Of a DNA stretch of 22,473 nucleotides, positions 1 to 21,894 are shown piece by piece (within the stretch, counting starts at the first letter, position 1; every line of letters begins with the position of its first letter). The notes under the pieces were generated by a model. It was not told where the DNA came from, did not search any database, and worked only from the letters and a program-made list of their open reading frames with translations. The position numbers were made by a program, and so were the translations under genes. The DNA lies in assembly GCF_000198775.1 (NCBI RefSeq), contig NC_014722.1:26620-49092 (forward strand), written 5' to 3'. Source of the DNA: Mycetohabitans rhizoxinica HKI 454. GTDB lineage: Bacteria > Pseudomonadota > Gammaproteobacteria > Burkholderiales > Burkholderiaceae.

Positions 1-493
1 AAGGCAGATTGAAATCGAATCGGAAACGGCGATTGTTTTCATCGTACCGATAGCTATATATTTGTTTGAGATCGAAAGGCTCTCGTACCAACTGCGCATC
101 CATAAAATAAAAGCCCTGCGATAGGGCTTCGGCCTGCGTTGCCTCATCCGAGCGCAAATCCAGAATCGCGCGCCGATAGTCGTTTTCCGTGACCGGTGAG
201 CATGTTAGTGCCCAATCTGGACCGAACGTCAATGGAAAAATTCGCTTCCGATTTTTTTCTTCACGCCGTTGCACATCCGCGGGATTGAGCGTCAGCAGAT
301 CCTTGAGCGGATGCGTGTGCCGATAGGCTAGATCGGCCACGTTATAGGTGAGCGCCTGCAAGAACGTTACACCTGGATCGTGCTCGCCAAACTCGGTCCA
401 TTGTTGACCGGCGAGCGTACGCAACGTGTCCAATGCCGTGGCCCACAGGCTATCAAAGTGAATCGCGTCGTATTCCTGTTCAGCGTCATCCAT
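1..493 (-). CDS. Baseplate J-like protein of eCIS (Afp12/Pvc12-type), N-terminal part, runs off window
   Basis: Reading leftward from an ATG at 493, the frame stays open to the window edge and gives about 164 residues. It begins MDDAEQEYDAIHFDSLW. Residues around 30-70 carry the pattern EFGEHDPGVTFLQALTYNVA followed by DLAYR and KDLL, typical of the start of gp47/baseplate J proteins: an acidic DPG(I/V)T element, then an amphipathic helix. In Afp/PVC particles this protein works with its larger partner Afp11 to build the baseplate wedges that hold the sheath in the extended state. It follows the giant baseplate gene by 75 bp, in the canonical 11-12 order. The Shine-Dalgarno is weak (GGGGC about 9 bases upstream). 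In-frame sequence upstream is open to a stop at 557-559 without another convincing start. The C-terminus is not visible. Confidence 0.75.
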   Translation of the reverse strand, partial: MDDAEQEYDAIHFDSLWATALDTLRTLAGQQWTEFGEHDPGVTFLQALTYNVADLAYRHTHPLKDLLTLNPADVQRREEKNRKRIFPLTFGPDWALTCSPVTENDYRRAILDLRSDEATQAEALSQGFYFMDAQLVREPFDLKQIYSYRYDENNRRFRFDFNLP

Positions 494-568: not shown

Positions 569-3500
569 TCATATTGACTCTGCTGTCCGGCGATACAATA
601 GGATCGAGTCTTGCTCGCCGCCCATCGCAAGCATTAAGCCATTGCCACTTAAGCTCACACTTGTGCCGAATCCTGTTTCCGCCTCAAGCGTTTGCAACAA
701 GGTAGGATCGGGACCATTCACACCGATCCAAATTTCAACCTGCTTACCATCAGCAGTGCCGGCGGCCAGAACATAGCCAGTATCGCTCAGACTCACGCTG
801 GTCACCGGCTGGGCCAATGAGATGCCCTTACCGGCACGTTGCCAGATGCCGTTTTGTATCTGATTAATAGTGATATCCGTTTGATACGCGCACGCGATCA
901 CCTGCGCGTTCCGGCTGAGAGTGGATACAGTACTTGAAGCACTTTCCAGTGGGACAAGCTTGTCAGGATGATGGATCACGTCCGAGTACACATAAACGAC
1001 CGTATCATCCTTGTAGTTTGCGACTAAGGGAAGCGTTCCGCCGCCATTGAGATCAATCGGGCGACCGTTCCCATCCGGCAGCGTTACCGGGCTCCTCTGT
1101 CCTTCCTGATATGTATTGTTATTGAGTGTCCAGAAACGAAGACACCCTTCTTCCTGAGCCACAGCGATGAACTGCCCGTTGCCCTCAACGCTAAGATCCG
1201 TCACGGTGCCTTTTTCTATGCCCACCTCGAAGCTTGGGCCAATGCCAAACGGCTGGTTATTGAGCAGATCAAACTGCACGGCGGTACCGCGAAGATACGC
1301 AATTCCAGGACAGGCATGCGGCCCAGTCAACTCAAATATGACCGTCTGACCAGCAACTAGGTCAATGTGGCGCCATTGGCTGTCTGGTCCATAAATGGCA
1401 ATGGCCGGCGTGTCAGGCGACTTAGTCACATCGACCGCCAGATACTGACCGTCATGGCTAACGCGTACGCGATTGCCAACCAGAGTATAGTCTGCCGGGA
1501 GCTTCACCTGCTGCGGTTGACCAAAAAGCGTTGACGTACGTTCGCCAAACGTGAGTACCAGCGCCTCTAGACCGTTTGCCTCAACGGTTCGCGCTTGCCC
1601 ATCGAGCAATAGGCTTTTTACCCGCATCACAATCGGCAAACGTTCGATGAAAGCAAGCATCGCATAGTAGTCGAGTGTTACGCCTGTACGAACTTCACCC
1701 GGACTGGAGCCGTTGGCCCAAGGCATATACTGGGCGCTGAGCGCCTGTGCCACTTGCCGATAGCCCTGATCAGGATTCGTGCTCGCAGTAAAGTCGATTG
1801 TATAGGCGACCGGGACATCGCGATAAGCTGGATTGCCGATTTCAAGGTTAAGCCATAGCGTCGCTCTGTCGAGAATAAATTGCTTCATCTGCTTCAGCCG
1901 CGACGCATTGAATGCAGGACGCAACCGGTCACCGCTATCGGATTGATCAGGCGTTGGAATGACGACCAGGCGCTGAATTAAAGGATGAGCGTTCGGATCA
2001 TCTTTGTCTTGCACGCGGGGGGCAGCCTCTCGTACGTCATGAATTTCCGTATAACGCTCCGTGAGCAATTGCCGGATATCGCCCCATGTCAATGCACGGC
2101 CGCGGTGATGCAGGCACTGGGCAATTCGTTGATAAAATCTCCCTGTTTCTTCCACGGGTTGGCCGCCCTCGGAAGGCCAGGGTTGTGTGATAGTTTGCAG
2201 ACCTTCGATGGGCTCGACACTGCGCGTGACCGTATCAGCAGGCAGGGGCGTGGTCAGATGATCTGCGGCAATATGCTCAACATTGACAAGCGTAGCCGTC
2301 ATGCAATTGACGTTCAGGCCTAACAGCCACGGAAAATCAGAAGGTCGCACCGCATCGTCACTGACCGCAAAACCACCCTGCTCCCCATCGTGCTCATGTT
2401 GGGCAGGCGGCTTGAACTGTGCGCGTACCCAATAGCGCCCTGCGGGCATGGCCGGGTCTTGGTGGCTCGCATCGTGCGGCAACGTTGTCCGCCATAAGCC
2501 GGACATTGACAATTTTCCTGTTTTATCATGCACCTGCATGTCCAGCGTTTGCCAGCAGCTCTTCTTATCCTTGTCCTGGGAAAGATAGTCCCAAGACAAC
2601 AGCACATCGGGATTGGCCGCTCGTACTTTCCAGTACAGCGCCAAATCTTGCCCCGGCTGTATCCCCGAGAAGCCCAGCATTAATTGACGCGCTGGCTGGC
2701 CCAACTCGCGGGCCATTGGCGCATCGTCCGCACAATGACCAAATGGCGTAAGTCGGTATTGGGTGTCGAGTGCAGCCGTCGATAGTTTGTACGACACGGA
2801 CAACGAGGCCCACTGCGGCGTATACGGGGGATGAAGCCGGATAATCGTAGGCGTCTTCTTATAGAGCGGTGCATTCTGAGAACTTTGATAGACGGCATGC
2901 TCAAAGTCTTGGCCTGTCAGTTTGAAACGAAGGTACTGGTCCCAATGGCGCGGATCGGTATCCCCGATGATCGTGGCGGTCAGCGCATCAATCGCGTTAA
3001 AGGCTAACGAAGCGCCGATCGGTGGCGAAGCGTTTCCCGGGGATTTGTCTTCAAATAGCGGAAGTCTACCGTCATCTGATAAATTGCTCGTCATTGCCGG
3101 TTGACGGCTCGCCACGGTCATTTCGACCGTGAAAACCTGATTATTCTCGGGTACGCGACCGCCATAAATGGCATAGCCAAACTTCTCATCTTGACCATCA
3201 ACGCTGTCCCATTCATACCAACTCTGGAAACTCTGCGTAGGCAATCCCATCCAACTTGGATTTAGCGTGATTGTCAGCTTACAATCCGGCTTGTTGCACC
3301 AGTCCGGCGACATCAAATAAAAGCTGCTGTCCAATACAGGGGAATCACCGAATGGCTTGTTTTCTTTATCTATTTCCGTCACACCGCCATCGGTCGCCAT
3401 GAGCACGTGGGGAGAATTGAGCACGGTTACGTTGATCTGCGTAACGCCTGGAATCCCAGCCGACGAATGCATCATCTTGAGCAACGGCATAGAATCATTA

Positions 3501-5434
3501 AAGCCATCCAACCCTGCGGGCAACGCTATTGCGCCTTGACTGGCCTGTAATACAAACGAAGCCTTTTTATCATCATCGATCTCCTCAGAGTTCTGCAAGG
3601 GAATCCAACTTCTGTTCTCTCCGCTCACCCATGCACTCAGGCCCTCTCTTGCTCCGATAGAGGCATCAAACATCACTTCGATCATACGCTGCCCGCCCGC
3701 AACGGCCAGCACCGGCGAAGCAATGGCGCAACCCGATTCAGACGGAGGCGAGAGCGAGTGCCGGGTAGGCTGGCTTGTTGTCGATAACTCATACAACACG
3801 AATAACGATGTCCACCGAGGCGTATACGGAGGATGGAGTTCGATAATCGTAGGCGTCTTCTTATATTGCGGCGCGACGAGTGAATTCTGATAAGCGGCAT
3901 GCCCAAAGTCCTGGCCCGTCAATTCGAAACGAAGATACTGTTTCCAGTCGTGCGGATCGGTACTTTCAATGATGGGGGCGGTGAGTGTCTCAATCTCGTT
4001 AAAGGTTAACAAGGCGCCTATCGGCGGCGGAGCGTCTCCCGACGATTGATTGTCGTATAACGGGACCGTTTCACCGTCTGATTGACCATTTGCCACCGTC
4101 ATTTTGACCGTGAACGCCTGATTATTCGCGGGTACGCCACCGCCGTAAATGGCGTAACCAGACTCTCCATTCTGGCCGCCCACGCTGTCCCATTGGTACC
4201 AATCGTGGAAGTTCTGCGTGGGCAATCCCGTCCACGCCGGATTCAGTGTGATGGTTAGCGTACAATCCGGCTTGTTGCACCAGTCAGGCGACATCAAATA
4301 CAAGCTACTGCCCAATGAGGGAAATTCCCCGAATGGCGTGCTCTTTTTACCTGTTTCTGCCACACTGTCATCGGTCGCCATCATCACCTGGGTGGAGTTG
4401 TGCACCGTAACGTTAATCTGCTTAACACGTGGAATATCAGCCAATGGACACGTTATCTTGAGCAACGGCACGGGATCGTTAAAACCATCCAACCCCGCGG
4501 GCACCGCTATGGCGCCCTGATCGGCCTGTAATACAAACACCGCCTTCCAGGCATCAGGCGGCATACCGATGATGGGAAGCCTCTTTAGGGGAACCCAACC
4601 TTTCTCCCCGCTCATCCATGCACTGAGATTCTGGTCTCCTTCCATCAGGCCACCGACACCATCAAACATCACCTCAATCTCGCGCTCCCCTTGCGCGACA
4701 GCCAGCACCGGCGAAGCAACCACGCGCCCGCGCACCACGGTCTGGTCCCTTTGAGGATCGTAACTAAATAGCCGCACCCCTTCGTTTGGCCACACCGTGG
4801 CAGACTGACCAAGCGTATCAAGCACCACCCGCTTCGTGGCAGGATGTTGGATTTGAGGGTTATCGTTATGGTTTTCCGACTGATACCAGCACACGTCCGT
4901 GAGCATCGCCTGATTCACCCACACATCCTCATCCAGCCGATATTCCAATGGTGTTCCTGCACTATCCTGGCCCGCACTGAACCGTTCACCGGCCGGCAAC
5001 ATCAAGCTTGGCTGGCTTGGCGTAAATGACAGCATCACCTGATCCGGCACAGCAGGCTTTTCCCGCACACTAAGCTCGTCCCGGTAATAAAGCGCGCGAT
5101 GCCGAGCCGGTATCGTGTTAAACAGGTCTCGCGGCACGTTGAGCGAGGCTAAAAATGCGACCAGAAAGGCTTGCTGGGAAGGCAGCAAACCATTGGGCTG
5201 AGCTACCGCCTTAAGTAAGGCCGCGACGGGGTCGACTGAATCACCGGCTTCATCGGACGGGAAAAAAAACTTCTTCCACGACTCATCGTCTTTCTCAAAG
5301 CTGCCCGGCTTGGCAAACGGATCATCAAATGGCAGCAAAGCTGCATAGTCTCGCCAAGTCTCTAAGTGCCATGCCAAATCGCGTTGATCCAGTATGAACG
5401 ACTCTTGAGGCGATAATGTCTTCTTCGCTGCCAT
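569..5434 (-). CDS. Giant eCIS baseplate protein (Afp11/Pvc11-type) with internal duplication and C-terminal propeller-like extension
   Basis: This 1621-residue protein is the likely large wedge subunit of the eCIS baseplate. Residues 1-235 form an Afp11-like N-terminus (LDQRDLAWHLETWRDY; later LPAGERFSAGQDSAGTPLEY). Residues 239-552 and 571-886 are two clearly homologous copies of one module; both contain LMSPDWCNKPDC and KKTPTII.LHPPYTP. Residues 890-1295 resume the family core, including LMLGFSGIQPGQDLALYW near 918 and a C-terminal wedge region ending near YYAMLAFIERLPIVMRVKSL. Residues about 1296-1621 show repeated beta-strand patterns such as VRVSHDGQYLAV, TDLSVEGNGQFIAV, TSVSLSDTGYVLAAG and TSVSLSGNGLMLAMG, suggesting WD40-like blades. 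Without duplication and extension, roughly 960 residues remain, close to what I remember for the family. It starts 51 bp after the gp25-like gene, with an A-rich leader and no obvious Shine-Dalgarno. The PAAR gene usually found just before it is missing here. Confidence 0.82.
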   Translation of the reverse strand: MAAKKTLSPQESFILDQRDLAWHLETWRDYAALLPFDDPFAKPGSFEKDDESWKKFFFPSDEAGDSVDPVAALLKAVAQPNGLLPSQQAFLVAFLASLNVPRDLFNTIPARHRALYYRDELSVREKPAVPDQVMLSFTPSQPSLMLPAGERFSAGQDSAGTPLEYRLDEDVWVNQAMLTDVCWYQSENHNDNPQIQHPATKRVVLDTLGQSATVWPNEGVRLFSYDPQRDQTVVRGRVVASPVLAVAQGEREIEVMFDGVGGLMEGDQNLSAWMSGEKGWVPLKRLPIIGMPPDAWKAVFVLQADQGAIAVPAGLDGFNDPVPLLKITCPLADIPRVKQINVTVHNSTQVMMATDDSVAETGKKSTPFGEFPSLGSSLYLMSPDWCNKPDCTLTITLNPAWTGLPTQNFHDWYQWDSVGGQNGESGYAIYGGGVPANNQAFTVKMTVANGQSDGETVPLYDNQSSGDAPPPIGALLTFNEIETLTAPIIESTDPHDWKQYLRFELTGQDFGHAAYQNSLVAPQYKKTPTIIELHPPYTPRWTSLFVLYELSTTSQPTRHSLSPPSESGCAIASPVLAVAGGQRMIEVMFDASIGAREGLSAWVSGENRSWIPLQNSEEIDDDKKASFVLQASQGAIALPAGLDGFNDSMPLLKMMHSSAGIPGVTQINVTVLNSPHVLMATDGGVTEIDKENKPFGDSPVLDSSFYLMSPDWCNKPDCKLTITLNPSWMGLPTQSFQSWYEWDSVDGQDEKFGYAIYGGRVPENNQVFTVEMTVASRQPAMTSNLSDDGRLPLFEDKSPGNASPPIGASLAFNAIDALTATIIGDTDPRHWDQYLRFKLTGQDFEHAVYQSSQNAPLYKKTPTIIRLHPPYTPQWASLSVSYKLSTAALDTQYRLTPFGHCADDAPMARELGQPARQLMLGFSGIQPGQDLALYWKVRAANPDVLLSWDYLSQDKDKKSCWQTLDMQVHDKTGKLSMSGLWRTTLPHDASHQDPAMPAGRYWVRAQFKPPAQHEHDGEQGGFAVSDDAVRPSDFPWLLGLNVNCMTATLVNVEHIAADHLTTPLPADTVTRSVEPIEGLQTITQPWPSEGGQPVEETGRFYQRIAQCLHHRGRALTWGDIRQLLTERYTEIHDVREAAPRVQDKDDPNAHPLIQRLVVIPTPDQSDSGDRLRPAFNASRLKQMKQFILDRATLWLNLEIGNPAYRDVPVAYTIDFTASTNPDQGYRQVAQALSAQYMPWANGSSPGEVRTGVTLDYYAMLAFIERLPIVMRVKSLLLDGQARTVEANGLEALVLTFGERTSTLFGQPQQVKLPADYTLVGNRVRVSHDGQYLAVDVTKSPDTPAIAIYGPDSQWRHIDLVAGQTVIFELTGPHACPGIAYLRGTAVQFDLLNNQPFGIGPSFEVGIEKGTVTDLSVEGNGQFIAVAQEEGCLRFWTLNNNTYQEGQRSPVTLPDGNGRPIDLNGGGTLPLVANYKDDTVVYVYSDVIHHPDKLVPLESASSTVSTLSRNAQVIACAYQTDITINQIQNGIWQRAGKGISLAQPVTSVSLSDTGYVLAAGTADGKQVEIWIGVNGPDPTLLQTLEAETGFGTSVSLSGNGLMLAMGGEQDSILLYRRTAESI

Positions 5435-5485: not shown

Positions 5486-5926
5486 TCATTGTGCAAGCCA
5501 CCCTCCCTGTGGACTGCCGAAATTCAGCCTACCACCGACATGCTGCACCGTATTGTTCAAGGGAATCCGGTAAGCAATGTCGATATTGAGCGTCCACGGC
5601 GAATTGCTGTCCGGTCTGAAATCAATTGAGACCAGCGTGCCCCGGGGCTCGTAGGTTTGAACCGCGTCACTGATCATCTGGCGAATTTCGGTGCGTAGCC
5701 CATCGCTGATGTTCTCAAACACAAAGGCTTGTAAATCACACCCATAGCCTGCGCGCATGACCCGTTCGTAGGGCTGCGTACTAAACAGTACCTGCAAACT
5801 TTCTTTGATATTGTCCGCATCGCGTGACATCATCACTTGCGCTGCTTTTGGCTTACCGGAGACACATTCGAACTGCACCGGAAACTTCCAGCCGCATCCA
5901 AGCTGATTCTGAGGTCCGTTCGCCAT
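5486..5926 (-). CDS. gp25/TssE-like baseplate protein of eCIS (Afp9/Pvc9-type)
   Basis: This is a 146-residue protein of the gp25-like lysozyme-fold baseplate family, which joins the tube/sheath initiator to the baseplate wedges and nucleates sheath assembly. Visible family features are the SRDADNIKESLQVLFST helix, the PYERVM(R)AGYGCDL motif at about residues 50-70, and the C-terminal ...NLDIAYRIPLNNTVQHVGG strands; gp25 proteins commonly show ER-hydrophobic-x-PxFG at the equivalent place. I chose the ATG at 5926 (MANGPQNQ) because GGAGGA sits immediately upstream at ideal spacing. An in-frame ATG at 5938 lies inside that ribosome binding site and has none of its own. It starts 20 bp after the spike gene ends and is followed 51 bp later by the giant baseplate gene. 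Confidence 0.85.
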   Translation of the reverse strand: MANGPQNQLGCGWKFPVQFECVSGKPKAAQVMMSRDADNIKESLQVLFSTQPYERVMRAGYGCDLQAFVFENISDGLRTEIRQMISDAVQTYEPRGTLVSIDFRPDSNSPWTLNIDIAYRIPLNNTVQHVGGRLNFGSPQGGWLAQ

Positions 5927-5946
5927 CCTGTCCTCCATTCATACGA

Positions 5947-7707
5947 TTAACCCAAGTTGACCTGGCCGCCTTTGAGGTCAGCCTTGGCTGAGCCCTGCAG
6001 CGAAAGCGTTTGCGATTTGGCGCTTAGGGAAGTCCCGCCCATCTTCATTTCAGATTGACCATTTTTAAGGGTGAGACCTTCTTTGGCTTCTACCGTGATT
6101 TTTTTCGCATCAAGCGCGAACGCTTCTTCGCCATGCAAGCGCAGGCTTGCCTTAGACAGTACCAATGCCGTCTTCTGCGCTTCCAACGTAAGCGTGCCAC
6201 CGTCCTTGATGTCAAAAAGCCATTGGAATTGTGTCTTGCCGTCTTTCGCCAACACCAAGCCCTTCTGCTCGTTTTTCTCGCTCGGCTCGAACGGCGCCTT
6301 GTTTTTCGGGTTATGCACAGCGCTGACGATCACTGGAAAACGCGGATCGTCACTCAGAAACGCCAGCATCACCTCGTCATCAGCTTCCGGATACAAGCAT
6401 AAGCCACTGCCTTTGCTGGCATAGGCCATGCCGGGCCGCACCCAGACCGGTGGCTCCTGTCCTGGTGTGCCTCCCAGGCCCGGCACACGCACCGCCATAC
6501 ACCCCCAACCAGTCGGGTCCTTTTCACGACCAGGCTTCACAACCACACCGGGTGCCATACCTTGGACCCTTGGCATCAAGGGCGCATCGATCTCAGGTAC
6601 TTGAAGGCCGATCACGGCGTTAGGCCGGCCCGTCGTCACGATCGTCTTACCTTGGCCAGCACCGATCCATTGGTGCCGCACTTCGGCAATCAGCCCCTTG
6701 CCATCGAAAGTGCCATAGCCTGACAATTCTAAGGTTTGTCCAGGTGCCAGTTTAGCCGTTGCTTCACTCCAATCCACCGTGAACTCCGCCTGGGTACCCG
6801 CCAGTTGGCAACCTAACAAGCGGGCATCCGCGAAAGATTGCGCTTCCGTCTCGCTAAGCGGCAAGCCTGCGTTCAGTGTCCAGTGCATCGCATCGGACGC
6901 AGCATAGGTGAGCGGCTTGAATACGCCCGATCCGACTGCCGGAGATTTCGCCTTCACAGACCGGCTTTTCTGCTGCGCGACATCCCAATAATTCACGCTC
7001 AATTGGCTCGGTAGTCTTCGGCTATCACGCCGGTACTTCATGTCACGTAACTCGATCCCGGCATTCTGCTTCGCCGCTTTTAAGACGAGGCCTTGGGGCG
7101 CTTGCCCAATATCCGGTTTGAGGATCGACACCGATTGTTCTGGAGCACCGATCAACCAGACCGGATACGCGCTAATCCGGCTCATCAACCAGGCCCAGTC
7201 CGAGCAAGACCATTGGATCAGCTGTGCGTGCGAAACTGTCATGCCATCGACTTTTTTCACCTTGATGCCGTGCTCCTTGAACAGCTTTTGCAGAGCCTGG
7301 GCATCGGTGAGCTTTTCGCCTTTTTGAGTCAACACTTGACTGCGGTGGCTGTTGGCCATTTTCTGCAACTCATGGACCACCTCGAGCTGGCACGTTAGTT
7401 GCCGTTGCACATAGCTTGGGTTCAGTGGCCTGGCAACCATCCCATCAAAAATCGGAACGCGCGTGCCCGTTTCATCCGTGTAGCTGATCTTGACGGCATG
7501 GGCTGGCCGCCATGCTTTGTCTATCTGGCTTAACGATGCCCAGCTGTTAGCTGGATCTTCTATATCCACTCGGCACGTTAACCGGGCCATTGGGATCCGG
7601 TTGACCGTATACTGAACTTCCGCTTCAATCACCGTTAAACCAAGCTTGGACAGCGGCTGGCCTTGCACCTGGATGTCAAATTTTTTACTCGCAAAGGGCA
7701 GCGCCAT
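5947..7707 (-). CDS. VgrG-like central spike protein of eCIS (Afp8/Pvc8-type)
   Basis: This protein of about 586 residues trimerises to form the hub and needle below the inner tube. Residues about 5-350 look like the phage late-control D/gp27 hub (MARLTCRVDIEDPANSWASL; TVSHAQLIQWSCSDWAWLMS; PAHAVKISYTDETG). Residues about 375-465 form the gp5-like OB fold (GWGCMAVRVPGLGG...WVRPGMAYASKGSGLCLYPE...DDEVMLAF). The remaining about 110 residues are Lys/Gly/Ser-rich short repeats ending KADLKGGQVNLG, the expected triple beta-helix needle. No extra effector domain follows, so it is a plain spike. The LysM gene's TGA overlaps the GTGATG here: starts at 7710 (GTG) or 7707 (ATG) are both possible, and I prefer ATG after the GGGGGG run. 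The separate PAAR-like tip protein would cap this needle. Confidence 0.88.
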   Translation of the reverse strand: MALPFASKKFDIQVQGQPLSKLGLTVIEAEVQYTVNRIPMARLTCRVDIEDPANSWASLSQIDKAWRPAHAVKISYTDETGTRVPIFDGMVARPLNPSYVQRQLTCQLEVVHELQKMANSHRSQVLTQKGEKLTDAQALQKLFKEHGIKVKKVDGMTVSHAQLIQWSCSDWAWLMSRISAYPVWLIGAPEQSVSILKPDIGQAPQGLVLKAAKQNAGIELRDMKYRRDSRRLPSQLSVNYWDVAQQKSRSVKAKSPAVGSGVFKPLTYAASDAMHWTLNAGLPLSETEAQSFADARLLGCQLAGTQAEFTVDWSEATAKLAPGQTLELSGYGTFDGKGLIAEVRHQWIGAGQGKTIVTTGRPNAVIGLQVPEIDAPLMPRVQGMAPGVVVKPGREKDPTGWGCMAVRVPGLGGTPGQEPPVWVRPGMAYASKGSGLCLYPEADDEVMLAFLSDDPRFPVIVSAVHNPKNKAPFEPSEKNEQKGLVLAKDGKTQFQWLFDIKDGGTLTLEAQKTALVLSKASLRLHGEEAFALDAKKITVEAKEGLTLKNGQSEMKMGGTSLSAKSQTLSLQGSAKADLKGGQVNLG

Positions 7708-8468
7708 CACGCCCCCCTAGAGCCAGGCACACGCAAAAATTGGCCGGGTGTCAAAGCCTCCAGGCTATCCAAATCATTTTCACGGGCGTACGATAGATAA
7801 TCGCTCGCCGTCGTTTGGCTCGGCACAGACCACGCTCCCTCGGCAATATGAGCCAATGTGGCACCATCTGGAACGGGCCCGCCCTCGTACAACATACTGA
7901 CTTGCCCCGTACTACCACTGCTACCGCCTTGGCCGCCCCCCTGCGACACATTGCCGCCGCTGCCACCCTTGCTTCCCATATCCAACTCCAACTCTTCAAG
8001 AAACTGGACCGAGAGGTTGGCACGTTGAGGCGCGCCACTGCGGTCAAAGAGCGAGCATGTCACCGTCATGTTCGTCATCCAGCCGGTAAACTTCATTTGC
8101 CCCGCCCAGCCAAAATTGCCCCATTCGACCTTAACAATGTTGGGCGTACGCACCGCACCGTTGATCCTAAAAAACGTGATGTACAGACTAGACAACTGCT
8201 CATCGACGCTTGTTTTGCTGTCTGGCAAACTGCTGTCTAGGATCAACTCCACCGCCAGCGTGCTGGGTGTCACCGCGCCAAATTTGACACGGGTATTGGA
8301 GCTATCGGCCAGCGACTCTTCCCGAAAATTCGCACCATACCCAATCGTCAATGACTCGGGGTTATACAAAACTTCGAAAGGCCCTGCCAAGTTCTTGAGC
8401 GCTCCCCCCTTGTCCAGCAAATAGGGCGTCATTTTCAATTTCTTCAGTGACTGATCGCTCCCGCTCAT
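7707..8468 (-). CDS. LysM-domain tube/baseplate connector of eCIS (Afp7/Pvc7-type)
   Basis: This is a 253-residue protein. Residues 1-165 resemble the gp53-like connector domain of Afp7: MTPYLLDKGG near the start, then the FEVLYNPESLTIGYGANF and SLPDSKTSVDEQLSSLY patterns and WAGQMKFTGWMTNM. Residues about 166-195 are a Gly/Ser-rich linker (GGSGGNVSQGGGQGGSSGS). The end (about 205-253) is a LysM-like fold with DGATLAHIAEGAW and ALTPGQFLRVP. In Afp/PVC this protein clamps the spike hub to the first tube rings; the LysM is structural there rather than necessarily peptidoglycan-binding. The start at 8468 has a strong GGAGGTAG ribosome binding site 4 bases upstream and overlaps the previous gene's stop as ATGA. 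Its own TGA overlaps the spike start. The pattern of neighbours is canonical. Confidence 0.85.
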   Translation of the reverse strand: MSGSDQSLKKLKMTPYLLDKGGALKNLAGPFEVLYNPESLTIGYGANFREESLADSSNTRVKFGAVTPSTLAVELILDSSLPDSKTSVDEQLSSLYITFFRINGAVRTPNIVKVEWGNFGWAGQMKFTGWMTNMTVTCSLFDRSGAPQRANLSVQFLEELELDMGSKGGSGGNVSQGGGQGGSSGSTGQVSMLYEGGPVPDGATLAHIAEGAWSVPSQTTASDYLSYARENDLDSLEALTPGQFLRVPGSRGA

Positions 8469-14600: not shown

Positions 14601-14860
14601 CTCATGGCCTTCCCAGCGCAGCAGGCATGTAAGCGGCGGGTAAAACGAAGGTGGTAACGGCCACCACCCGGAAGGTTGCGGTGCTGCTCTACAGCGCGAT
14701 GCGTTTCGGCAGGACGTACGCGGTTCCCGGCGCAGATCCATTACGAACAGCGCTACAGGGAGCGGGCCATCCAACGATTACATCGGCAAGCGGCGGAATT
14801 CGTCTTCTCATTCAACCTGTACAAGGCGTTTCTTAGAAATCGTCTTATCTTCTTGCTCAT
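14601..14860. other. IS-derived debris between two IS3 pieces, possible plus-strand transposase C-terminus
   Basis: No intact gene is present. On the plus strand a reading frame over about 14676-14909 includes HYEQRYRERAIQRLHRQA, then AEFVFS. The pattern Y-x-x-R/Q-YRER-x-x-x-L-x-R-x-A resembles the C-terminal tail of some bacterial transposases, but I cannot name the IS family with confidence. The minus strand carries only broken frames. This is best seen as the scar of one element inserted into or deleted from another. Confidence 0.3.
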
Positions 14861-15338
14861 TTCCTCGAAGCCTGTCCGATTGAGTAAGGCTACTTCTGGG
14901 CGATTTTAGCGAGCTTCGGTCAAAGGCCGGGCCATCTTGTTCTTCTTCTAGTCCGCCACATTCATAGTAATAAAGGGTGCGCGACATCCCCACTAAGCGG
15001 CATACACGCGCCAGACTCACGGTGAGATGCTGTCTTAGGTGATCGATTAACTTGCGACGCTTGTGTGTGCTGAGACTCTGCGCTCGAAGCGCCTCGCTTA
15101 GCACTTCACTATCGCGTTCGAGTGATTTCACACGCTGGCGCAACCGTGCGTTTTCCCGCGTCAGTGTGGTAATACGCTCAAATACAGGCACACTCAGGCC
15201 GTCATAACTTCTTTTTAGTTGATAAAGCGTCGTCGCACTGATACCCCATCGGCAACAAACTTGAGGCACCGTCTCACCCTCACGGAGTGCTTGTAACACC
15301 TCTATGATTTCAGTTGGATTGAGCTTATGGTTTCTCAC
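14808..15338 (-). pseudogene. IS3-family transposase OrfA with the first part of OrfB, truncated
   Basis: The 176-residue frame starts with an OrfA helix-turn-helix (NPTEIIEVLQALREGETVPQ, then VCCRWGISATTLYQLKRSYD), continues with the leucine-zipper-like coiled coil (ITTLTRENARLRQRVKSLER, then DSEVLSEAL), and then KRRKLIDHLRQHLTVSLARV, followed by CRLVGMSRTLYYYE, the start of IS3 OrfB. After about residue 130 (near 14950) similarity stops and the last 45 residues look like foreign sequence. The DDE catalytic core is missing here; an integrase-core scrap lies 200 bp further left. In complete IS3 elements OrfA and OrfB are joined by programmed frameshifting; here the OrfB-like part is in the same frame. 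Start is GTG at 15338; an upstream ATG ends at once. Confidence 0.75.
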
Positions 15339-16636: not shown

Positions 16637-16997
16637 GTAATATTGCGCAATGTCGATTTATGGTATCTTGGTGCGGAGCATACCGCCCTTAACAAGATCA
16701 ACCTGGAGATTCGTCATCGAGAAATTGTTGCCGAGGCTGACATCACGCGACTGATACTCAAACTCTCTGAATAAAGAACCGCCGTTATTGTTAGCCATCG
16801 ACTCGCATTGACCCGATTTGTCGAGCGCAATCTTCGTATTAAACTAAGGGCGACTCATTGAGGAAGGATCTCATGATGACCTCATAAGACAAAGTGGAAA
16901 ATATGCACGGATGTTCCATAGCCAAGCTATGTTTTACCAAGATAGCACTCGAGATTCGGGGACTTTTGTAAGACAGTGGTCCGAGAACTGGGGTTAA
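16637..16997 (+). pseudogene. Decayed ABC-exporter ATP-binding domain (internally deleted, stop and frameshift)
   Basis: In one plus-strand frame 16637 onward reads VILRNVDLWYLGAEHTALNK, then INLEIRHREIVA, the opening of an ABC exporter nucleotide-binding domain just before Walker A. The frame goes directly to EADITRLILKLSE, a TAA stop (16772-16774), then RTAVIVSHRLALTRFVER, the H-loop region (SHR). Walker A, the signature and Walker B are gone, so an internal deletion has occurred. A one-base shift near 16825-16850 leads to RLIEEGSHDDLIRQSGKYAR, then MFHSQAMFYQ and a TAA at 16995-16997: the classic C-terminus of ABCB-type exporters. Its stop overlaps the stop of the convergent outer membrane factor gene in TTAA. 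The transmembrane half is absent; IS3 OrfA debris sits at its left edge. Confidence 0.75.
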
Positions 16998-18430
16998 AAT
17001 GCGTCATCACCACCCCCCAGTGCCTTGTATAGATTCATTTGGTTGTTAAGCTGGTTCAGGCGATTCAGCGCGGACGTACTTTGCGCGTCGCGCAGCCGCT
17101 GCTGCTCGTCGAGCCACGGCTGCACACTGGTTGCACCGGCTACGAAGCGGGCCCGCGCGAGTGCTTCCGCGCGCTGTGCTTGCAGGAGCGACAGCGTGCG
17201 CTGTTCGCCTTCACGTTCAAGCTGAACGCGTGCGGACAATGCGTTCTCGACCTCTCCGAGCGCGGTGTACAACTGCTGGCGAAAGTTGACGACGGCTTCC
17301 TCGTATTGTGTCCGCGACACCTTGATCTGCAGCTGCATCGTGTTCCACTGGATAAACGGCAGCGCGAGTTCAAGGCTAAGCGCCGCGACAGGATTCGACA
17401 GCACACGCTCCAGGCTCGCGCTTGACGTGCCGACCGAGCCCGTTAGCGTGAACGACGGATAGAAACGGGTACGCGCGACGTCAACGTTCGCGAGCGACTC
17501 GCGTAGCCGGCACTCGGCCGCGCGCAGGTCTGGACGCCGCCTAAGCAAGTCGGCGGGCAGACCCGCTGGCACCACCGGCAGCACCCGGTGAGGCAGCGCG
17601 GCCGGTTCGGCGGCCCTTGCCTGCGGCGGGCGATCAAACAAGATCGCGAGCGCATGACGGTTCTCGGTACGCTGCTGAATCAGTTGCATTTGGGCCGCAC
17701 GCTGCACGGACAAGCTCTGCTCGGCCTGCGCGACGTCAAGGCCGGATACCGCGCCCGCCGCGTGGCGCGTACGTACCAGCGCGAGCGTGCGCTGTGCATA
17801 CGCGATGTTCGCGTTGCCAAGCGCGATCTGTTGGTTCAGATAGCCAATCTGCCAGTACAGCGCAGCGATCGTGCCGATCAGCGAGAGCCGCGCCGCGTCG
17901 TGGTCGGCCTGCGTCGCGGCGGCTTTCCAACGCGCCACGTCGCGCTGCGCGGCAAGCTTACCCCACAGGTCAAGCTCGTAGCTAAGCGAGCCGTACAGAT
18001 TGCTCGCGTGCGATGTCTGGCGCGAATCGGGCGTGCGCGATACGCGGCCGTTGCCGCCAAGCGTCGCGGTGGGGGCCAAGTTGGTGGCGACGAGACCTGC
18101 TTGCAGTTGTGCGCGATAGACACGGATCGCGGCGGCGGCGAGGTCGTTGTTTACGGCAAGCGCGTCGTCGATCAACCGATCGAGCACGGGGTCCCCGAAG
18201 CCGCGCCACCAGTCGGTCGGAATCAGCGCAGTTGCGCAAGGCTCGGATGTGTCAGAGACGGCGGAGCAAGGCGTCTTTGTCGTCGCACCGGCCGCGTCGT
18301 ACGCGCTCCAATGTGCGGGCAGCTTCACGGCGGGCAGTGACTGGCGACGCGCGTTCACGCAGCCAGCGAGCAGCACAGCGGCACATACGAGCGAGAGCAG
18401 GTGGCGGGGGACGGTCGGAATGTGGATCAT
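16994..18430 (-). CDS. Outer membrane efflux lipoprotein, TolC/OprM/NodT family
   Basis: This 478-residue outer membrane factor completes the MacA-MacB pump across the outer membrane. A lipoprotein signal peptide is evident: PRHLLSLVCAAVLLAGC, with the lipobox LLAG|C and the modified Cys at residue 24. Two outer-membrane-factor repeats follow: WWRGFGDPVLDRLIDDALAV, then NNDLAAAAIRVYRAQL; and LPADLLRRRPDLRAAECRLR, then ESLANVDVARTRFYPSFTLT. LSYELDLWGKL is the typical first beta-strand, and LELALPFIQWN its counterpart in the second repeat. It begins 12 bp after the macB stop, with a weak ribosome binding site, as the last gene of the operon. The C-terminus (QMNLYKALGGG) is complete. It belongs to the NodT branch used by MacAB- and RND-type pumps; substrate cannot be told from the sequence. 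Confidence 0.93.
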   Translation of the reverse strand: MIHIPTVPRHLLSLVCAAVLLAGCVNARRQSLPAVKLPAHWSAYDAAGATTKTPCSAVSDTSEPCATALIPTDWWRGFGDPVLDRLIDDALAVNNDLAAAAIRVYRAQLQAGLVATNLAPTATLGGNGRVSRTPDSRQTSHASNLYGSLSYELDLWGKLAAQRDVARWKAAATQADHDAARLSLIGTIAALYWQIGYLNQQIALGNANIAYAQRTLALVRTRHAAGAVSGLDVAQAEQSLSVQRAAQMQLIQQRTENRHALAILFDRPPQARAAEPAALPHRVLPVVPAGLPADLLRRRPDLRAAECRLRESLANVDVARTRFYPSFTLTGSVGTSSASLERVLSNPVAALSLELALPFIQWNTMQLQIKVSRTQYEEAVVNFRQQLYTALGEVENALSARVQLEREGEQRTLSLLQAQRAEALARARFVAGATSVQPWLDEQQRLRDAQSTSALNRLNQLNNQMNLYKALGGGDDAF

Positions 18431-18442
18431 GAGAGCGTCGCC

Positions 18443-20419
18443 TTAATCGCGCGCGAGCGCATCGATCGGATCAAGCCGCGCTGCATTGCGTGCGGGTATG
18501 AAGCCGAACACAACGCCGATCAGTGTCGAACACAAGAATGCGGTGACGATCGAGCCGATGGAAAACACCATTTTCCATTGGGTGACAAACAAAGCGAATA
18601 CGAAACGTGTGCCGAATGACAGTACAATGCCCATTGCGCCGCCAATCAGGCACACCATCACAGCTTCTATGAGGAACTGCTGCATGATGTCGCTTTGCCG
18701 GGCGCCGATGGCCATCCGGATGCCAATTTCGCGCGTTCGCTCGGTGACCGATACGAGCATGATGTTCATCACACCAATCCCGCCGATAATAAGCGAAATC
18801 ATCGCAATCAGCGATAGCAAGAGCGTCAGCGTCTGACCGGTCTTCTCAGCCGTCTTGACCACATTGTTCACGTTGTAAGTGAAAAAATCTTTGCGACCAT
18901 GGCGCTGCATCAACAGCTTCACGAGGCTATTCTCGGCCGTCGTGCTCGGCTGACCGTCGCGTACCCGTACCGTGAGGCTATCGAAATGGCGCTGGCCGAA
19001 CAACCGACCACTTGCCGTCGTGTAGGGCACCCATACGTTTAGGCTCTTCACGTCGCCAAATGCACTCTTCTTGTCCGCCGTCACACCGATCACGACGCAC
19101 GGTAGATTGTCAACAAGAATAACTTCGCCAAGTGGATTCGAGTCTGCGCCGAACAACTTGCGACGCGTGTTTGGGTCAATCACCACAACTTGTGCCTGAC
19201 GGCGTACGCCGTCAGGGCCGAAACCGACACCTTGCGTGAGTTTTATCCCGCGCACCTGAAAGTAATGTTCGCTGACGCCGTTCACGAGTGCGTTGACGTC
19301 GATGTTTCGGTAGCGTAGCAGCAGACTGCGCGACGTCTCGGGCGTCACGCTGTCGACGTAGTATTGTTCAGCAAGCGCAGTCACGTCGGCGGGCATGAGC
19401 GTCTGGATCGTGTGTGCCTGATTGTCGCCCCAGTCACGGCCCGGGTAGAAGCTGATTGTGTTCGTGCCAAGGCTCGCAATCTCAGCGAGCATGTAGCGCT
19501 TCGCGCCTTCGCCGATCGCGACGATTGATACGACCGACGTAATGCCGATGATAATGCCGAGCGTTGTCAGGATCGTGCGCAGTCGGTGCGATGCGAGCGC
19601 GAGCCATGCCATCCGAAATGCCTCGGCAAAGCGACCGGCGCTTGCCGACCAGCTGCGCGTGGGCGGTGGGGGTGAGATGGCCCGCGCATCCACGGTGGCG
19701 CATACCGGCCCTAACGCGCCATCCGTGACAGGCGTGTTCGGCCGGTCCGCGACAATTTCGCCGTCGCGGATTTCGATGATCCGGCGTGCGTGCGCGGCGA
19801 TATGCTCATCGTGCGTGACAATGATGACCGTATGGCCGAGCGCGTTTAGCTCTTGCAAAATCCGGATCACGTCTTGACCGCTTTTCGAATCGAGCGCGCC
19901 CGTCGGCTCGTCGGCGAGAATGACTTCACCGCCGTTCATCAACGCGCGTGCGATGCTGACGCGCTGCTGTTGTCCGCCAGATAGCTGGCTTGGCCGGTGC
20001 CCGGCGCGCTGAGCCAATCCAAGACGCGCAAGCAACCGCTTAGCGCGTGCATGCCGCGCAGCGGGCACGCTGCCCGCATAGACAGCCGGCATTTCGACAT
20101 TCGCCGCTGCACTCAGGTGTGGCAGCAGGTGGTAGCGCTGAAAGATAAAGCCGAAGCGCTCGCGACGCAAGCGCGCGAGTTCATCGCTGTCCAGTTCGTG
20201 CGTCTCGCATCCATCGACCCGGTAGCTGCCCTCGCTTGGATGATCGAGGCAGCCGAGGATGTTCATCAGCGTCGACTTGCCGGAGCCCGACGCGCCAACA
20301 ATCGCAACAAACTCACCCGCGTTGAGCGTCAAACTTACGTTTTTTAATACGACCACGTCGCGATCGCCGGCCGGAAAGCGTCGGGTAACGCCAACGAGTT
20401 GCAGCAGTGGCCAGGTCAT
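18443..20419 (-). CDS. macB: MacB-type ABC transporter, ATPase and permease in one chain
   Basis: This inner membrane component of the tripartite efflux pump has about 658 residues. N-terminal ATPase (numbering from the GTG at 20425): Walker [10 protein letters not shown] (44-52), signature LSGGQQQR (148-155), Walker [13 protein letters not shown] (168-179), H-loop His205. The linker is Pro/Arg-rich, then [20 protein letters not shown] (279-298) forms TM1, followed by a large periplasmic domain, and the C-terminal end has three TMs around [37 protein letters not shown] and [16 protein letters not shown], ending [17 protein letters not shown]. This is the standard MacB architecture and length. 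MacB drives periplasmic substrates outward by mechanotransmission. GTG at 20425 overlaps the macA stop as GTGA; I prefer ATG at 20419, with GGGAG seven bases before it. Homologues act in macrolide, enterotoxin, pyoverdine and lipopeptide export. Confidence 0.95.
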
Positions 20420-20421
20420 CG

Positions 20422-21612
20422 TCACACTCCCACGTCCGACGCAGTGTTACCCGTGTCGGACGCATCGCCGATCACAACACGCTCACCGGCTTTTAAGCCG
20501 GCTAGCACCTCGACTTTCACATTGTTGTTGATGCCGATGCGGATCTTGCGAGTCTCAAGTTTGTCGCCTGCGCCCAACACGCGGACTGTGTACAGACCAT
20601 CCTTGTCTTTTGCGCCGAGCGCGGCGACCGGGATGATGAGCGCGTTGCGCGCGGTGCCGAGCAGCACGCTGACCTGCGCGGTCATTGCGATGCGCAGCCG
20701 ATGCCCGGGATTGGGCACCTCAAACAACGCGTTATAGAACACGGCGGTATTCGGCTTGGACGCGCCGCCGCCCATCACACCGAATGTCCCTTGCGTGTCG
20801 AGAAAGTTTTGCGGCGCGGGCTCGATCGCGCGCAGCTTACCGTAGTAGCGCTTGTCAGGCTCGCCAAGGATCGTGAAGTACGTGTTCTGGCCCGGGTACA
20901 CACGCACCACATCGGCTTCAGATACCTGAGCCTTCACAGTCATCGTGTCGAGATCGGCAAGCTTCAGGATCACCGGTGCCTGCTGCTGTGCGATTACGGT
21001 CTGACCTTCCTGCGTGACAATGGCAACGACCTCACCGTCCATCGGCGCGATGATCCGCGTATAGCCGAGGTTGACCTGTGCGGTCTCGGTGTGGATGCGG
21101 GCCGAGCGGATCTGCGCGTCGAGCGATGCGAGATTCGCGCGCTGCACTTCGAGCGCCGATTTCGCGGCTTCGTAATCTTGCCGAGAGGTCGCGTCTTCCG
21201 GCAGCATCTGCTGTTGGCGACGGAATGCAAGCTCGGCCTGCATCAGTTGAGCGGCCATCGCGCGTTTCTGCGCGGCAAGGTTCTGCTCGTTGGCTTGCGC
21301 TTGGCGCAGCGCATTGTAAGAGAGCACCGGGTCGATCTCCGCGAGCCATTGTCCTTGCGTAACCTTGTCGCCAAGCTTGACCTTTAGCGATTTCAATTGT
21401 CCCGACACCTGCGCGCCGACGTCGACCTGCTTGAATGCCTGCAGCGTGCCCGTCGCGAGCACCGCGTTCTCTAGGTCGCCGCGTTCGACTTTCGCGCTCA
21501 GGTATTGCGCATGCTTGTCCCGCGCAAAAAAATGCAGTGACAGCGCGGCAACCAGAACGATGGCGACAACACCAACTACCGCGGCACGCCCATGGCGAAA
21601 ATTTTTCTTCAT
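20422..21612 (-). CDS. macA: MacA-type periplasmic adaptor (membrane fusion protein)
   Basis: This adaptor of 396 residues from MKKNFRHGRA has one N-terminal membrane anchor (about residues 10-28, AAVVGVVAIVLVAALSLHFF). The lipoyl half-motifs (TGTLQAFKQVDVGAQVSGQL, then KSLKVKLGDKVTQGQWLAEI) and RIIAPMDGEVVAI flank a helical hairpin (ANEQNLAAQKRAMAAQLMQA to NLASLDAQIRSARIHTETAQ), whose tip docks onto the outer membrane factor. The beta-barrel domain (LADLDTMTVKAQVSEADVVR) and membrane-proximal domain follow, ending DASDTGNTASDVGV. Upstream in-frame starts to 21702 exist, but they add a strange 30-residue extension; ATG 21612 gives the usual MacA layout although no good Shine-Dalgarno precedes it. 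It overlaps macB by GTGA. With the promoter expected in 21613-21890, macA, macB and the outer membrane factor gene form one operon. Confidence 0.93.
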   Translation of the reverse strand: MKKNFRHGRAAVVGVVAIVLVAALSLHFFARDKHAQYLSAKVERGDLENAVLATGTLQAFKQVDVGAQVSGQLKSLKVKLGDKVTQGQWLAEIDPVLSYNALRQAQANEQNLAAQKRAMAAQLMQAELAFRRQQQMLPEDATSRQDYEAAKSALEVQRANLASLDAQIRSARIHTETAQVNLGYTRIIAPMDGEVVAIVTQEGQTVIAQQQAPVILKLADLDTMTVKAQVSEADVVRVYPGQNTYFTILGEPDKRYYGKLRAIEPAPQNFLDTQGTFGVMGGGASKPNTAVFYNALFEVPNPGHRLRIAMTAQVSVLLGTARNALIIPVAALGAKDKDGLYTVRVLGAGDKLETRKIRIGINNNVKVEVLAGLKAGERVVIGDASDTGNTASDVGV

Positions 21613-21894
21613 GTATGGCGGAATTTTCAAGCAAATCCGAGCATGTGAATGCAATACGATACGGACTATGATACCGAAAGGTACTGGCCACATCGTTCTC
21701 ACCTACTGCTTCATAAAATCTCGGACGCGAGGCACAGCAGAAGGAGCATTGCTGGAGCTGTCTGAGCTTGGTCGCTCTCATTGGGCACGCCGGTCTGCTG
21801 CCGCCTGGTCGAGTCATTGGTCCATTCGGATGGCAGATAAAGCTAGTAAGCTTTACTGACTGCTTGTCCTTCCTCGCAAAACCCGTTTCATTAT
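21613..21894 (-). promoter_or_regulatory. Upstream region of the macA operon
   Basis: This 282-bp stretch separates macA from the IS701-like fragment and should carry the macA promoter. I see no convincing -35/-10 pair or operator. On the minus strand TTTCGGTATCATAGTCCG and TATCGTATTGC are AT-rich patches within 60 bp of the start, but they fit the consensus poorly. Open frames across it are out-of-frame extensions of macA. Confidence 0.25.

Follow-up and report, generated by a model that had tools for sequence, protein, structure and literature searches.

Pvc11 and Afp11, from the Photorhabdus PVC and the Serratia Afp, are the described baseplate wedge proteins with which the protein studied here can best be compared; their core is homologous and their eCIS gene neighbourhood alike. 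In related systems, six Afp11-Afp12 heterodimers are reported to surround the spike as a hexamer (PMC8894136). In AlgoCIS, an outward movement of the Afp11/Afp12 equivalents together with Alg9 is proposed to trigger contraction of the sheath (PMC13314943). The tail fibres are regarded as the main target-finding parts of eCIS, the cage of Alg11 being a proposed exception (PMC8894135). An Afp/PVC-type cluster of the species analysed here was recorded in 2014 under the name Burkholderia rhizoxinica (Rbrh_00107-00122, PMC4122934), and an adenovirus-shaft fibre has been published for Mycetohabitans rhizoxinica HKI 454 (PMC12923769).

The window, i.e. the whole stretch of 22,473 nucleotides that was analysed, covers bases 26620-49092 of a 2,755,309-base contig in the 3.75-Mb genome of this strain. 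The following eCIS genes are found at its beginning:

2..493, minus strand: start of the Afp12-type wedge partner gene, which runs on beyond the window
569..5434, minus strand: Afp11/Pvc11-type baseplate wedge gene, 1621 codons plus stop, named by homology to solved wedge proteins
5486..5938, minus strand: gp25-like baseplate protein (Afp9 type), PF04965 E 2.5e-20
5947..7710, minus strand: spike protein (Afp8 type), PF04717 E 1.1e-10
7707..8468, minus strand: contractile injection system tube protein (Afp7 type), PF19266 E 1.7e-26

By homology, the 1621-aa protein is classed as an Afp11/Pvc11 wedge protein of an eCIS. It matches Pvc11 (9qgl_A, E 7.6e-132; 6j0n_J, E 1e-111) and Afp11 (6rao_I, E 1.2e-83), and also All3317 of the tCIS and the baseplate J-like protein 7aeb_G. 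The setting is that of an eCIS operon, with genes for gp25, spike, CIS_tube, sheath, tube, tip, tape measure, AAA and Pvc16 near afp11. Outside the window, on from Afp11, follow Afp12, the fibre-type genes, a methyltransferase, the tape measure, the AAA ATPase and Pvc16.

Some further features of the locus can be mentioned here. The Afp12 gene (L003:4219-7112, minus strand, from window position 493) is present as two overlapping frames of 425 and 562 aa, and its one ambiguous residue lies away from the frame split. In strain B8, Afp12 is a single 963-aa ORF; here the frame may be truly broken, or the sequence may contain an error. The gene for the spike tip (PF19267, 15421-15837, minus strand) is located upstream of the tube gene, past a transposase-like ORF (14808-15338), instead of standing between the gp25 and Afp11 genes. 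Upstream of the eCIS genes, window positions 16994-21702 (minus strand) encode an export set of the MacA-MacB-TolC type (HlyD, MacB/ABC, OEP).

The locus contains three fibre-type genes, so named from their mutual likeness, a Pfam adenovirus-fibre match below the cut-off and the published M. rhizoxinica fibre. The 560-aa fibre-type protein (L003:2484-4166, minus strand) is built from two modules in tandem, both similar to the adjoining 289-aa fibre-type protein. The third fibre-type gene is directly followed by one whose product (L002:17830-19569, minus strand; L005:18499-20349, plus strand) is homologous to protein lysine methyltransferases 1 and 2 and matches PDB entries 5dnk (E 2.2e-69) and 5doo (E 6.7e-57), which are presumably Rickettsia enzymes. 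A 4-base overlap between these two genes is seen in strain B8. The methyltransferase homologue might methylate the fibres or another part of the particle, or it might be cargo.

Besides the core that it shares with Pvc11, the wedge protein has the following parts on either side of this core:

3749..4729, minus strand: duplicated wedge domain, first copy, residues 236-562, 62% identity to residues 568-896 (E 1.7e-141)
2747..3733, minus strand: duplicated wedge domain, second copy, residues 568-896, overlapping the start of the Pvc11-delimited core
1541..2833, minus strand: conserved wedge core, residues 868-1298, from the Pvc11 alignment
1523..1540, minus strand: short linker, residues 1299-1304, with hand-set boundaries from the core end to the first propeller strand

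The duplicated domain of about 330 residues is present as a single copy in the four homologues compared (P0023, P0024, P0028 and P0034). By analogy with the Alg11 cage, its tandem duplication could make the wedge larger.

At the other side of the core, Pvc11 stops where the Mycetohabitans propeller starts: residues 868-1305 of the query align with residues 486-901 of Pvc11 (9qgl_A, 905 aa). For the remaining solved wedge proteins the alignment stops at query 1267-1290, and the phrog_33902 match stops at residue 1295, which is profile position 1010 of 1020. Among 28 Afp11 proteins, 14 end 0-26 residues past the core. Longer ends are left in the six Mycetohabitans orthologues (323 residues), Pseudomonas kielensis P0028 (469), two copies of the same-genus paralogue 2 (385 each), two of paralogue 3 (196 and 168) and P0035 (175), next to two distant rows (104 and 67) in which the core alignment ends early. 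Because half of these Afp11 proteins end at or shortly after the core, and in view of the Pvc11 boundary, the C-terminal domain must be seen as an addition. The original prediction, which had set this extension apart from the normal wedge, is borne out in this respect.

The same genome contains two other Afp11 copies, at 1.69 Mb with a different 385-residue C-terminal extension and at 2.40 Mb with one of about 196 residues. Neither extension gives a Pfam propeller match, nor any other Pfam match there. In the genus, two such further Afp11 types (L029:7186-10560, L040:8304-11678, L030:8011-11781 and L041:7390-11106) possess extensions of 385 and 168-196 residues, parts of which look alike by eye. 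The sister extensions differ, and thus the Afp11 end varies between clusters of one genome. This turnover of end modules marks it as a hot spot of change.

The repeat region had been placed in the last 325 or so residues. It corresponds to window positions 569-1549 (minus strand), i.e. residues 1296-1621 (326 residues), without an inner stop, and all eight peptides quoted in its support are present in the translation. The last 317 residues or so most likely form a WD40-type beta-propeller with seven blades, for which the support of each blade is given as the number of shuffles that were as good:

572..1522, minus strand: WD40-type beta-propeller, residues 1305-1621, seven blades as read
1481..1522, minus strand: N-terminal strand, residues 1305-1318 (modelled strand 1308-1311, model residues 19-22)
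1349..1480, minus strand: blade 1, residues 1319-1362, four modelled strands, 101/500 shuffles as good
1223..1348, minus strand: blade 2, residues 1363-1404, 207/500
1082..1222, minus strand: blade 3, residues 1405-1451, 0/500
947..1081, minus strand: blade 4, residues 1452-1496, low model confidence, 112/500
821..946, minus strand: blade 5, residues 1497-1538, low model confidence, 6/500
686..820, minus strand: blade 6, residues 1539-1583, 0/500
572..685, minus strand: blade 7, residues 1584-1621, three strands, 0/500

These figures derive from a leave-one-blade-out test with 500 shuffles on blades delimited by hand, in which blades 1, 2 and 4 singly reach no significance. The "at least five repeats" proposed originally are thus best read as seven blades, but only blades 3, 5, 6 and 7 are supported alone. 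Since blade 7 itself contributes three strands, the N-terminal strand is proposed to close the ring there.

Several comparisons support the repeats and their fold. A looser regular expression of the motif, composed after the sequence had been viewed, is found 4 times, where 2000 shuffles give a mean of 0.0045 and a maximum of 1. The ten best self-alignment windows have a mean score of 41.0 (28.0 +/- 2.7 in 200 shuffles, maximum 36.5); the single best window, at 44, lies below the shuffle maximum of 53. The C-terminal piece passes the Pfam WD40 cut-off (PF00400, 30.6 bits versus 27, E 4.3e-7), in line with the WD40/YVTN-like blades that had been suspected. On the whole 1621-aa protein the same profile scores 21.1 bits, under the cut-off. 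FG-GAP_2 (PF14312) stays under its cut-off of 23 on the Mycetohabitans propeller (13.2 bits, E 0.11), and the NCBIfam search yielded no family. In WD40 repeats, the GH and WD dipeptides are usual but do not occur in every member. On inspection, both dipeptides are absent here, and a Trp at the strand-c place is found in blades 3 and 6 only.

The PDB sequence matches of the domain are the PkwA WD40 domain and the WRAP-T propellers, which we take to be designed proteins. In accordance with the original prediction, a propeller fold was obtained by structure prediction (pTM 0.72) from an alignment that included WD40 proteins; modelling from close orthologues alone, without WD40 proteins, failed (pLDDT 35). 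With the former model, the fold search returned WDR61 and two further propeller chains, presumably Gbeta and RACK1. A closed ring of about seven four-stranded blades is thus suggested by model and fold match, but blades 4-5 are of low confidence, the alignment contained WD40 rows, and blades 1, 2 and 4 are not significant singly. A profile made from the close-orthologue alignment, which consists mostly of full-length wedge, finds wedge proteins only and no WD40 chain in the PDB.

The propeller is kept within part of the genus. Four of the eight Mycetohabitans genomes, all large (3.3-3.75 Mb) and from four species, contain the gene with the propeller, and no match to the gene was found in the other four (1.1-1.2 Mb). 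The propellers of the orthologues named Mycetohabitans, M. rhizoxinica among them, are 84-87% identical to the present one. Among 61 genomes (own and relatives) nine show a match, in one case (G024) to the WD40 blades only. This genome, of another genus in the same family, encodes a 1433-aa protein (L043:7352-11653, minus strand) that matches at 29% over residues 1486-1615, the last WD40 blades.

The class sample contains a match in at least 16 of 369 genomes and the order sample in at least 33 of 399, both counts being lower bounds with at most two candidates scored per genome. C-terminal length was compared for 17 class-search genes and for 25 of the 31 further order-search genomes (leaving out L095, L102, L104 and three genomes without loci). 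Artefacts aside (L058, cut by a contig end; L094, where the match stops early; L077, with an internal TAG and sequence beyond it that resembles the next gene), more than 200 residues past the match were found, besides this gene, only in G187/G396. A Pfam propeller-type family is present in 5 of 23 Afp11 proteins, namely four from Mycetohabitans and P0028, in a set from which a length rule excludes proteins much shorter than the query.

Mobile elements were searched as well. Matches were found in 44 plasmid records, none with 80% coverage of the query, and the best 20 of these matches all stop by query residue 1298. No propeller relative of similar length was found at E 0.001, none in phage records and none in viral contigs, the latter search being sensitive to close relatives only. 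In a structure search, the model matches 158 predicted viral proteins (E <=0.001), including phage and giant-virus propellers; these matches fit any propeller and are uninformative on origin. Of two further scans, each with a propeller relative, one gave 2 loci and the other none; both were left out of the results.

A common origin with the propeller of P. kielensis finds no support: phmmer finds no match between P0028 and the Mycetohabitans propeller, and the best BLAST piece spans 17 residues (E 0.009). In the Afp11 tree, P0028 clusters with its propeller-less sister P0030 (100/100). The Mycetohabitans clade clusters with proteins that likewise lack a propeller, among them P0022 and P0023 (88/99). 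The tree carries long-branch warnings, including G006C18 with P0033, and leaves out P0038, P0039, P0040 and the G187 type. Both propeller-bearing branches stand beside propeller-less ones, and therefore two separate gains appear likely and three possible from these sequences. The third would concern G187/G396, from one genus of the same class, where about 350 residues contain BNR/Asp-box-like repeats by eye (Pfam Sortilin-Vps10 E 0.12, under the cut-off). This stretch precedes the apparent last strand of the Baseplate_J protein, and the G187 gene belongs to an eCIS that also includes CIS_tube and Tail_P2_I genes; judged by its repeats, this lineage has probably added a propeller at or near the same end too. 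We take the Mycetohabitans propeller to be one among several end modules that eCIS wedge proteins have acquired separately.

P0022 is filed under the fungus Apophysomyces sp. BC1034. It is a close Afp11 without propeller, joined to other eCIS parts, and probably comes from a bacterial endosymbiont of Apophysomyces.

The rates of change were compared along the protein, with dN/dS values as means over four genomes and six pairs (three genomes and three pairs for the third fibre). The wedge core is the most conserved part (identity 0.960, dN/dS 0.14). The propeller shows an identity of 0.878 and a dN/dS of 0.39, and similar rates are seen in residues 553-867, the second duplicated domain (0.837 and 0.40), and in residues 1-235 (0.927 and 0.44, at a dS of just 0.080); residues 236-552 show 0.912 and 0.26. 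The dN/dS of the propeller also lies near that of the outer part of the third fibre (0.33) and above that of its inner 230 residues (0.13), which suggests a domain that is constrained, yet evolves more freely than docking onto a conserved base would imply. In six distinct propellers, the DA and BC loops vary at 22/58 positions versus 6/48 for AB and CD (Fisher p 0.004), a contrast that is post hoc and uncorrected, excludes the inner loops of blades 4-5 and depends on a middling model. Strands vary as often as loops (35/148 versus 46/184). The site variation is compatible with both a variable binding face and relaxed constraint.

By analogy with other systems, the propeller on Afp11 may be an accessory recognition platform, for which an outside target would be likelier than the conserved fibre bases; we consider this plausible, though at somewhat less than an even chance. 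The short linker connects the propeller to the end of the normal wedge. With six wedges per particle, a copy number taken from related systems, six propellers would stand at the baseplate rim and could bind a surface or ligand on the cell met by the machine. They would help to hold or orient the baseplate, with the fibres doing the main binding, and one propeller per Afp11 would provide six rigid platforms coupled to the wedge movement at firing. The role suggested originally (extra binding, anchoring or fibre docking) would fit such a platform.

The recognition platform is favoured by the retention of the domain in four large genomes, by the more frequent variation of the DA and BC loops and by the presence of a terminal propeller in another lineage and probably in a third. 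The Alg11 cage, with its proposed attachment role (PMC8894135), and the beta-propeller lectins of eCIS tail fibres (PMC12923769) are precedents for such a platform. An outside ligand is preferred because the propeller changes faster than the fibre base, but this rate argument is weakened by the similarly high value of residues 1-235. The rate is thus not special to the propeller, and its strands vary like its loops, as they would under simple relaxation. In the tCIS, moreover, the solved C-terminal extension of Cis11 contacts a fibre protein (PMC8894136).

This last contact points to another possibility, somewhat unlikely in our estimation, in which the propeller would act as a fibre-docking clamp that binds the machine's own tail fibre(s) and steadies or cocks them until a target is met. 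The Cis11 extension touches Cis13 in the thylakoid-anchored system (PMC8894136), eBAP2-type fibres were modelled as possibly binding Pvc11 (PMC12923769), and the three fibre-type genes at the propeller locus, one with two tandem modules, would suit such a clamp. So would the lower variation of blades 6 and 7, which lie beside the closing strand (11/83 positions versus 70/249 elsewhere). However, at the eCIS loci L032 and L030 of the same genomes, two fibre-type genes or a doubled fibre occur with no propeller. The dN/dS of the propeller also exceeds that of the first 230 residues of the third fibre (0.13, with 0.33 beyond) and of the whole 560-aa and 289-aa fibres (0.22 and 0.26).

Alternatively, the domain could be a structural ornament or assembly aid, which braces the enlarged wedge or represents a near-neutral gain, with no ligand outside the wedge. 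The equal variability of strands and loops would be expected then, as would the tandem duplication in the same Afp11, the equally high dN/dS of its second copy and of the N-terminal part, and the different extensions of the sister copies. Beta-propellers, however, are mostly interaction platforms, and this one is kept in four species with a dN/dS below 1, which makes a mere ornament quite unlikely. An anchor to the producer's own envelope or to a cytoplasmic partner, as in thylakoid-anchored systems, is improbable: the tCIS is held to its membrane by baseplate and fibre extensions, but PMC8894136 assigns this anchoring to Cis12 and Cis13 and not to the Cis11 end, and hints of membrane binding were not noticed in the domain sequence.

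The recognition platform can be generalised further. The Afp11 C-terminus would then be a general socket, occupied repeatedly by recognition propellers of different types (WD40 in Mycetohabitans, FG-GAP in Pseudomonas and a BNR-like one in the third group). These would equip the baseplate with a further ring of heads for receptor binding or sensing, independent of the fibres and directly coupled to the moving wedge. We regard this wider proposal as unlikely overall. If the domain is of a binding type, its place on a wedge that moves at firing would make it a second, direct site where target contact is read. With four species that possess the propeller, some beside propeller-less paralogues, the question is testable.

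Outside Afp11, the closest relatives in sequence and fold are prokaryotic WD40 proteins (PkwA, cyanobacterial NB-ARC proteins and others), whose blades have diverged less from one another than those of Mycetohabitans; to our knowledge, none of these occurs on an injection machine. The Afp11 of P. kielensis (P0028, 1358 aa) has propeller-type repeats after the core, at the same end. These belong to FG-GAP_2 (above the cut-off) and follow a stretch that looks fibronectin-like by eye, whereas those of Mycetohabitans are of the WD40 type. No account of a propeller on Afp11 was found in the open-licence literature (subscription papers and preprints were outside the scope). Extensions of Afp11-family wedges (tCIS, AlgoCIS) and propellers on eCIS fibres are already known; the propeller on the wedge may be new.

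Cis11 (All3317) of the tCIS is also an Afp11-family wedge with a C-terminal extension, which is reported to contact the fibre Cis13 (PMC8894136). Because its match stops at query 1267, this extension is not the present domain by sequence. Alg11 of AlgoCIS is likewise enlarged, with extra, possibly sugar-binding domains, but here the extra part sits inside the protein (domain IV, residues 278-643) and encloses the spike in a cage, for whose carbohydrate-binding modules a role in attachment has been proposed (PMC8894135). The beta-propeller lectins described on eBAP3 tail fibres of eCIS (PMC12923769) share the propeller fold with the Mycetohabitans domain, but are placed on the fibres and not on the wedge.
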